This document shows, one piece after another, positions 24,559 through 26,545 of a stretch of 43,623 nucleotides of DNA; within the stretch, counting starts at the first letter, position 1, and each line of letters begins with the position of its first letter. The position numbers and the translations under genes were made by a program. The stretch comes from an uncultured Bacteroidota bacterium. GTDB lineage: Bacteria > Bacteroidota > Bacteroidia > Chitinophagales > LD1. The DNA lies in assembly GCA_903861145.1 (NCBI GenBank), contig CAIOTH010000021.1:1-43623 (forward strand). The letters run 5' to 3'. A model generated the notes under the pieces. That model did not search any database, was not told the origin of the DNA, and was given only the letters and a program-made list of their open reading frames with translations.

Positions 24559-25017
24559 ATGGAAATGAATTTATTCAGTATAAAGGGAGTAGCCTATATT
24601 ATAAGCGCTGTGTTTTTGGTGTCCGTAATTTCGTATTTGGAATACGATGACTTTAGAATGAGTGGTTTGATGTTTCCGGTTTTGTGGTTAGTGCTTGGAG
24701 GCGGTTTTGCATGGATAATATTAAAGCAGAACGTTATTATAGGCGCATTTATGGCGCTCGTTTTTTTATTTATTAGTGCAGTTGTACTGCTTGCAAATTT
24801 TATGTGCGCAAACTCTTTAGAGAGCTATGGATACACTAATGGGCAGGATAAATCTTTAAAAATTGAAATTTGGACGATGGATTGCGGCGCCTGGGATAGC
24901 AGCCCAAGCCATAACTATTACAAGGCACTTCAACTTACCGGGCATATTAAATGGGTTACCAAAATTGATAAAGCCGAGATTGATACCGCAAAGTGGGAGT
25001 TTGGTAACCTGCGCTAG
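24559..25017 (+). CDS. Small membrane protein of unknown function
   Basis: A 152-residue protein with three hydrophobic helices in the first 90 residues (about 11-27, 36-53 and 59-84), then a soluble C-terminal domain of about 65 residues with WTMDCGAWDSSPSHNYYKAL and HIKWVTKID. Family not recognised. The soluble part could face the periplasm. No operon partner; it lies between a terminator and the C10-containing spacer ahead of the ribosomal operon. Confidence 0.65.
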   Translation: MEMNLFSIKGVAYIISAVFLVSVISYLEYDDFRMSGLMFPVLWLVLGGGFAWIILKQNVIIGAFMALVFLFISAVVLLANFMCANSLESYGYTNGQDKSLKIEIWTMDCGAWDSSPSHNYYKALQLTGHIKWVTKIDKAEIDTAKWEFGNLR

Positions 25018-25120: not shown

Positions 25121-25130
25121 CCCCCCCCCC
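25121..25130. repeat. Homopolymer of ten C
   Basis: Ten C in a row in an otherwise AT-rich spacer, about 120 bases upstream of the rpsF promoter. Such runs slip during replication and are also prone to sequencing error. Confidence 0.9.
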
Positions 25131-25249: not shown

Positions 25250-25280
25250 TTTGGAAATTCCCTATATCGGGTTATCTTTG
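25250..25280 (+). promoter_or_regulatory. Promoter of the rpsF-rpsR-rplI operon
   Basis: TTTG at 25250-25253, a 19-base spacer, then TATCTTTG at 25273-25280: a perfect match to the Bacteroidota housekeeping consensus (TTTG, N19, TAnnTTTG). Transcription should start near 25286, giving a leader of about 58 bases before the rpsF ATG. Confidence 0.82.
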
Positions 25281-25343: not shown

Positions 25344-25733
25344 ATGCTTACACAGTACGAAACAGTATTTATTCTCACTCCTGTGTTATCGGAAGATGAC
25401 ACCAAAAAGTCGATCAGCAATTATGTTGAGCTACTTAAGTCCCAGGGAGCAGAGATTGTTCATCAGGAACATTGGGGGCTCAAAAATTTACGTTACCAAA
25501 TTGGCAAAAAAAACACCGGCATTTACCATGTGGTGGAGTATAAAGCCAATGGCAAAGCGGTTGATACATTGGAAGTTGCGTTTAGGCGTGATGAAGGTGT
25601 GTTGCGTTATTTAACAGTAAGGCTTGATAAGTATGCTGTAAAATATAACGACGACAAGCGCGCCGGTATAGTAGGAAGGAATAAAAAAGTTCAAACCACC
25701 GATAAAACCAAGGAGGTAGCAAATGGCAACTAA
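25344..25733 (+). CDS. rpsF: 30S ribosomal protein bS6
   Basis: Small-subunit protein bS6, which pairs with bS18 on the 30S platform. The 129-residue sequence has the family beta-alpha-beta pattern: [52 protein letters not shown], then a charged tail. First gene of the operon; its last 11 bases overlap rpsR, and its tail codons carry the Shine-Dalgarno of rpsR. Confidence 0.97.
25710..25717 (+). promoter_or_regulatory. Perfect Shine-Dalgarno ahead of rpsR
   Basis: AAGGAGGT ends 5 bases before the rpsR ATG at 25723, an optimal match and spacing to the 16S anti-SD. It lies within the 3' end of rpsF (codons Lys-Glu-Val). The other genes I checked in this window have no such element before their start, in keeping with the usual lack of SD use in Bacteroidota. 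Confidence 0.8.
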
Positions 25734-26019: not shown

Positions 26020-26469
26020 ATGGAACTAATACTTATAAAAGATGTGGAAAAACTCGGCTTCGCTGACGACCTGGTAAATGTTCGTCCCGGATTCGGATTA
26101 AACTATCTGATACCACAAGGCTTTGCAGTTGTAAAAAGCGACGGCAACCTGGCACAACTTTCAGGCAGAGTAAAGGCCCGCGAAAAACGCGAAGCCAAAT
26201 TGCTTGAGCAGTTTAATGAAATATCTGCACGCTTAACCAGCGCTACCATTAAAATTGGTGCAAAGGTTGGTACTACCGGTAAAATTTTTGGTAGCGTTTC
26301 GGTTTACCACGTGGCCGAAGCTATTAAGAATCAATTACAAGTTGAAGTTGACCGCAGAAAAATAAAGATTACTGAAGGCGAAATTAAGCAACTAGGCACT
26401 TATACTGCCGAAGTTGGTTTAGGTTCAAGCCACAAGGTTACTGTTACTTTCGAAGTAGTAGCTGAGTAA
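26020..26469 (+). CDS. rplI: 50S ribosomal protein bL9
   Basis: Large-subunit protein bL9, bound near the L1 stalk base. The 149-residue protein has the N-terminal domain MELILIKDVEKLGFADDLVNVRPGFGLNYLIP, a long connecting helix, and a C-terminal domain with KIFGSVSVYHVAEAI and RRKIKI. It follows rpsR by 27 bases with no SD, and the operon ends at the hairpin 26510-26545. Confidence 0.97.
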   Translation: MELILIKDVEKLGFADDLVNVRPGFGLNYLIPQGFAVVKSDGNLAQLSGRVKAREKREAKLLEQFNEISARLTSATIKIGAKVGTTGKIFGSVSVYHVAEAIKNQLQVEVDRRKIKITEGEIKQLGTYTAEVGLGSSHKVTVTFEVVAE

Positions 26470-26509: not shown

Positions 26510-26545
26510 AGTCCTTGTCGTTTAATGCGGCAAGGACTTTTTTTT
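26510..26545 (+). terminator. Terminator of the ribosomal operon
   Basis: agtccttgtcg (26510-26520) pairs with cggcaaggact (26528-26538) over 11 bp with one G-T wobble and a seven-base loop, followed by a T-run to 26545. Confidence 0.9.

Follow-up and report, generated by a model that had tools for sequence, protein, structure and literature searches.

The window (the whole stretch of DNA that was analysed, 43,623 nucleotides) carries on its forward strand the genes for the ribosomal proteins bS6 and bS18, followed by a third ORF which, by its operon position, is probably rplI (bL9), i.e., the row rpsF-rpsR-rplI (Table 1). The end of rpsF runs over the start of rpsR, and its last codons, AAG GAG GTA GCA AAT GGC AAC TAA, contain a Shine-Dalgarno (SD) element. 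The octamer AAGGAGGT, encoded by the codons AAG GAG GTA (K-E-V), occupies positions 25710-25717 and is separated by a 5-nt spacer from the rpsR ATG at 25723, just where the initial annotation had placed it. Scored against the genome's own 16S tail, the start of rpsF has no SD, and none is present at rplI, where the longest match to the tail complement is 5 nt. In the genomes G006 and G011 the junction reads GAG GTA GCA TAA TGG, and the window (25707-25733) has GAG GTA GCA AAT GGC AAC TAA; relative to G006 and G011, the window has a 1-base deletion that does away with the rpsF stop and makes the protein three residues longer, leaving the SD intact. Upstream of rpsF, TATCTTTG may be a promoter element of the Bacteroidota -7 type. 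A run of ten C is located at 25121-25130, in the 326-base stretch between an ORF ending at 25017 and rpsF. On the putative terminator downstream, a weak PyrR match (30.9 bits vs the 54 needed) was taken as chance.

Table 1. Genes and sequence elements around the rpsF-rpsR junction (positions in the window)
Feature	Position	Strand	Evidence or remark
Possible -7 promoter element TATCTTTG upstream of rpsF	25273..25280	+	
rpsF, bS6, 129 aa	25344..25733	+	PDB 7jil chain k, E 3e-30
Shine-Dalgarno AAGGAGGT plus A	25710..25718	+	9-nt complementarity to own 16S tail UACCUCCUU
rpsR, bS18, 89 aa	25723..25992	+	Pfam PF01084, E 9.0e-23; PDB 7jil chain w, E 1.9e-37
Third ORF of the row, after rpsR	26020..26469	+	
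Likely intrinsic terminator after rplI	26510..26545	+	AGTCCTTG...CAAGGACT then T run; read by eye

The 16S rRNA of the same genome (contig C79) ends in GGCTGGAATACCTCCTTTTT, indicating that the CCUCC anti-SD is intact and that the match extends over nine bases, all nine pairs being uninterrupted (AAGGAGGTA). For comparison with other starts, 524,109 of the 4.7 million bases of the genome (~11%) were sampled. A simple rule that takes the longest frame from an ATG gave 414 genes; 402 of them were scored, and the other 12 were left out because they lay too close to the end of a contig or stretch. Among these 402 starts rpsR has the strongest predicted SD pairing (-13.9 kcal/mol), the runner-up being rplW at -10.2 kcal/mol, and among the called starts inside the window it alone reaches -8.5 kcal/mol; the initial annotation had likewise seen no comparable SD at most of the other starts. 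At -7 kcal/mol or beyond, 13 mock windows and 12 starts qualify, which gives no sign of SD use across the genome (please note that weak or misplaced SDs may escape longest-ATG starts on ~11% of the genome). At -13 kcal/mol or beyond, the one start (rpsR) is accompanied by one mock window as strong, i.e., a match of this strength is expected by chance about once in 400 windows. General SD use, whether genome-wide or at abutting genes, was not seen among the sampled starts. The chance of the exact octamer in a given 10-nt slot is ~1.6e-4, and it occurs 17 times on both strands of the 524,109 sampled bases; the two further copies in the window, noted before as near 904 and 26932, are located at 901 and 26931, and the minus strand of the window has none.

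Elsewhere in the sample, in L247:1-5600, the S10 ribosomal operon looks split, which may be real or an assembly artefact: an apparent uL3 end at ~178 is followed by ~2.2 kb with two minus-strand ORFs and then by what look like rplD-rplW-rplB-rpsS-rplV, after which rpsC was not recognised within L247:1-5600; rplB is the sole gene of this stretch whose name was searched. The gene at L247:3082-3375 (contig C88), probably rplW (uL23), has TTAGGAGGACATAGCC before its ATG, the second strongest SD in the sample. PMC9976891 lists rplW among the other SD-bearing ribosomal genes.

A caveat raised with the element was that Lys-Glu-Val codons alone could give the octamer. For the window genome by itself this part of the caveat stands, as synonymous resampling gives p = 0.113, which is not significant, and 23 distinct family junctions combined give p 0.0066 (kinship is uncorrected in both values); the significance comes from the relatives. 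We considered all distinct abutting rpsF-rpsR junctions, with or without an SD, and assigned Glu codons to the SD position when they ended between 15 and 7 bases ahead of the ATG, and to the stretch just upstream when they ended between 30 and 16 bases ahead of it. Identical junctions were collapsed (from 180 to 167 for the counts by gap class, and likewise in this positional test), and L138-L141, which duplicate G-numbered genomes, were excluded from the named set. Across the 86 abutting junctions of the order, GAG makes up 83/106 of the Glu codons at the SD position, 0/55 just upstream and 295/804 in the rpsF body. The same shares are 25/29, 0/9 and 66/192 in the window's own family, 58/77, 0/46 and 229/612 in the rest of the order, and 31/35, 2/29 and 133/343 in named relatives from other orders, which are among the best 80 of 568 confirmed matches. 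Kinship was handled by thinning to one junction per genus alone (66 genera, 200 random draws), with a median p of 7.6e-6 and a maximum of 8.2e-5. Where rpsR starts at least 18 nt after rpsF, terminal Glu codons are GAG in 27/87 cases vs 211/578 in the body, i.e., at background. Val following GAG is encoded by GTA in 16/20 cases vs 203/663 in the body (p 1e-5), a choice which lengthens the pairing with the AAUACC tail of the order. Predicted SDs at -8.5 kcal/mol or beyond occur at 65 of the 97 abutting junctions vs 1 of 97 mock windows. An SD core lies between the genes, outside rpsF, at a gap of 13-20 in eight of the 79 named relatives that have rpsF (L157, L183, L186, L193, L199, L202, L208, and L217; best 80 of 568).

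The position-specific GAG, its background level when rpsR is far away and the intergenic SDs together indicate that the SD is under selection in the group, and from these codon counts we conclude that in the family and the order it is kept by selection rather than by the overlapping bS6 peptide. A peptide-only origin is ruled out at these two levels by the positional choice of GAG, and the conservation at synonymous sites beyond the needs of bS6, which the initial annotation had raised, is borne out by the same test in relatives and by the intergenic SDs. A split of Glu codons by SD presence is circular and was discarded as evidence. As a separate observation, GAG is nearly absent just upstream of the SD (0/55 in the order and 2/29 in the named relatives among the best 80 of 568), a pattern that would fit avoidance of decoy SDs, or of G residues, at 30 to 16 bases before rpsR.

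The distribution of the element was then read from a non-random choice of genomes, made by kinship, by recovery of the 16S and from lists of best matches, and the named set (79 of the best 80 with rpsF, L195 without) leans toward the query because it was drawn from the best matches; energies for genomes with no known 16S tail were computed with the tail typical of the order. The order sampled is most likely Chitinophagales, as it contains G048, in which 2669 bases of the rpsF-rpsR region give an 81% match to a named Thermoflavifilum. Beyond -8.5 kcal/mol, an rpsR SD is present in 63 of the 124 genomes measured in the order. In the window's family, to which "Bacteroidetes bacterium 37-13" belongs (L140, identical over 3153 bases to the G021 region), the rpsR SD is found in 20/28 genomes and an rpsU SD in 0/26, and the window's own genome has none at the sole rpsU found (contig C168). 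Both genes were measured in 101 genomes: 28 have both SDs, 29 only that of rpsR, 9 only that of rpsU, and 35 neither; exclusive use of one or the other was rejected. Family f20, which includes Thermoflavifilum, has both SDs in 19 of the 27 genomes with both genes measured; f17, which looks like Saprospiraceae, has the rpsR SD in 0/11 and the rpsU SD in 4/11.

Five genomes of the window's genus (G001, G010, G015, G016, and G017) have a weak rpsR SD or none (-3.1 to -7.4), G004 and G014 have GGGGG instead, and in G012, a near relative, the GGAGG lies far upstream, its end 13 nt from the ATG. None of these eight genomes has an SD at rpsU, and the first seven all keep bS21 Tyr54 despite the weak, absent or GGGGG element at rpsR. 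An SD that weakens, moves or disappears within one genus is not indispensable; its strength and spacing drift, and some members of the genus no longer have it.

The window genome's bS21 has Tyr54 (KAAYIQTLK, as in Flavobacterium johnsoniae), which, like the intact CCUCC tail, is a feature that the sequestration model calls for. 16S tails were recovered for 70 of 396 genomes of the order, and a renewed search of 48 genomes yielded one. In genus g3 of the window's own family (f1) the anti-SD (G019), bS21 Tyr54 (G019 and G022) and the rpsR SD (G019) have all been lost. G019 and G022 have Met at position 54 of bS21, whereas His takes its place in G043 and G081 (f15); G019 and G043, the two of these with a 16S tail, both have a changed anti-SD, and none of the four has an SD at rpsU or, where rpsR was found (it was not in G022), at rpsR. 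His54 is also present in G042 and G087, both of which retain a strong rpsR SD. Among the eight genomes with a variant anti-SD there is no positive case of SD/anti-SD covariation at rpsR: the SD is lost in G019, absent in G043, G331, G082, G183, and G225, and uncompensated in G021 and G098, the last with an assembly only 72% complete, so its 16S may be foreign. At rpsU, genus g44 (f17; G082, G183, and G225; loci L321, L319, and L316) combines the anti-SD CCUCU with AAAGAGGTA, its perfect complement, in all three genomes, a natural SD/anti-SD covariation outside the Chryseobacterium case described in PMC9976891. The uncompensated rpsR SD of G021 and G098 contrasts with the compensated rpsU of g44.

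We consider it reasonably probable that the element is a genuine, selected SD of rpsR which is read by ribosomes whose anti-SD is free for lack of bS21 or bS18. What the sequences show is that the element exists and is complementary to the genome's 16S tail, that it ranks first among the sampled starts and that relatives keep it under selection. The proposed mechanism is as follows. In Bacteroidia a pocket formed by bS21, bS18, and bS6 normally conceals the 16S tail, as it is held by these proteins in F. johnsoniae (PMC9976891). The tail is presumably sequestered in the window's species too, and an SD would then be of little use to complete ribosomes. If bS21 or bS18 is missing, the ribosome or late 30S precursor would have its tail free and should start translation at rpsR more frequently, and the supply of bS18 would rise up to the point where the platform is whole. 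With no SD at rpsU, the window's family would have rpsR as the main sensor of the pocket-deficient state. As to which absent protein matters when rpsR translation responds to such ribosomes, bS21 is among the last proteins to join and can dissociate (PMC9976891), which makes a shortage of bS21 the likelier trigger, whereas bS18 joins the assembling 30S subunit with bS6 as a secondary binder (PMC10931766), so that few active ribosomes may be missing bS18 alone. In F. johnsoniae, bS21 loss raises the translation of SD-bearing reporters, and tuf'-gfp given AGGAGGU yields >2-fold more GFP with bS21 deltaC and 70% more with Y54A (PMC9976891). The logic originally proposed for bS18 is therefore upheld in part: the SD is selected, CCUCC is intact and Tyr54 is present, and against it stands the weakening, shift and disappearance of the SD within the genus. 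The combined losses in genus g3 also speak for the regulatory reading, and the uncompensated SDs of G021 and G098 and the one equally strong mock window speak against it.

A more tentative idea, which we rate as possible and somewhat on the unlikely side, is that platform sensing can pass from rpsU to rpsR, after which the whole circuit can decay together. The family's rpsU would have lost its SD and rpsR alone would report free anti-SD tails, with the consequence that bS21-deficient ribosomes would raise bS18, not bS21; anti-SD, bS21 Tyr54, and SD would eventually decay together, as in genus g3.

A constitutive role of the SD is the strongest alternative, unlikely as we judge it to be: it would help ribosomes finishing rpsF restart at rpsR, giving equal bS6 and bS18 and no sensing of ribosome composition. 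Such coupling also predicts that abutment and SD go together, and SDs are most frequent at junctions in which the two genes abut or overlap (65/97 at a gap of at most 5, 2/19 at 6-17, and 6/51 at a gap of at least 18). In the window's genome, however, rpsR is the only one of 36 abutting sampled starts beyond -10 kcal/mol (the next are at -9.8 and -7.3), indicating that coupling here generally works without an SD. Likewise, L185, L189, L200, L209, L213, and L215 (four titled Flavobacteriaceae, the others Yeosuana and Aestuariivivens, among the best 80 of 568) abut at a gap of 2-3 without an SD, and the eight named relatives from the same best 80 keep an SD across an intergenic gap of 13-20. In wild-type F. 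johnsoniae, moreover, a strong SD lowered rather than raised output (PMC9976891). Regulation by pocket-deficient ribosomes, the preferred reading, has also to be set against the improbable case of a relic, i.e., a formerly regulatory SD now decaying in the family as that of rpsU already has; this accords with the absence of the rpsU SD in 26/26 family genomes and with an rpsR SD weaker than -8.5 kcal/mol in 8/28, but the window's own genome retains the full octamer and the 1-nt deletion of the rpsF stop (relative to G006 and G011) spared it. That a Lys/Glu-rich bS6 tail just happens to use AAGGAG is highly improbable. The peptide does contribute (hence the modest window and family p values), but the position-specific GAG choice within the same genes, its background level when rpsR is far and the intergenic SDs of relatives (best 80 of 568) refute coincidence for the family and the order as groups.

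Control of this operon by its own product is known from Escherichia coli and Bacillus subtilis, where bS6:bS18 autorepression acts via a structured RNA before rpsF (review PMC10931766). The operon is the same, and its product controls it there as proposed here; the leaders of the window's family, in contrast, are without a consensus structure. RNAalifold gave an empty consensus for 26 family rpsF leaders (G004 and G014 were dropped, having no leader or start), and single leaders, the window's included, hold hairpins at differing places. A structured bS6:bS18 operator conserved across these 26 leaders was thus rejected. The window has no Rfam match at the gathering score, although Rfam may hold no such operator family, and matches below that score were taken as chance.

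Neither the rpsR SD nor the idea of autoregulation is new, and both are in print (PMC9976891, PMC8710568). SDs of rpsR in Bacteroidales, Cytophagales, and Sphingobacteriales go back to Jha et al. 2021, cited by McNutt et al. 2023 (PMC9976891), where bS18 autoregulation is also raised; the available open-licence literature yielded no experimental test of the rpsR SD. What our comparison adds is a new lineage, apparently Chitinophagales, the state in which only rpsR has an SD, and a synonymous-site demonstration of selection, which the available literature passages do not contain. If the proposed regulation is true, specialised ribosomes that regulate ribosome assembly are not peculiar to bS21 in Flavobacteriales, and SD sensing would be a module that lineages shift from one pocket protein to another. 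The synonymous-codon signature offers an inexpensive way to tell from genomes which species depend on the rpsR SD.

The closest studied system is rpsU of F. johnsoniae (McNutt et al. 2023), likewise a pocket-protein gene with an SD in an SD-poor genome with an intact anti-SD and bS21 Tyr54. It is a different gene, its extended SD has 9 to 13 pairs, of which the 9 at rpsR are the bottom of the range, and the rpsR SD, unlike that of F. johnsoniae rpsU, is inside an operon and inside the upstream coding sequence. With the rpsR SDs known in Bacteroidia the present one shares the gene, the element and the proposed link to anti-SD occlusion by bS18. The predicted strengths overlap as well (-7 to -14 kcal/mol in PMC9976891 vs -13.9 kcal/mol here, by a different energy routine). 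The rpsR list in the available part of PMC9976891 is without Chitinophagales, whereas here the SD is found in what is most likely that order, in a family whose rpsU has no SD.
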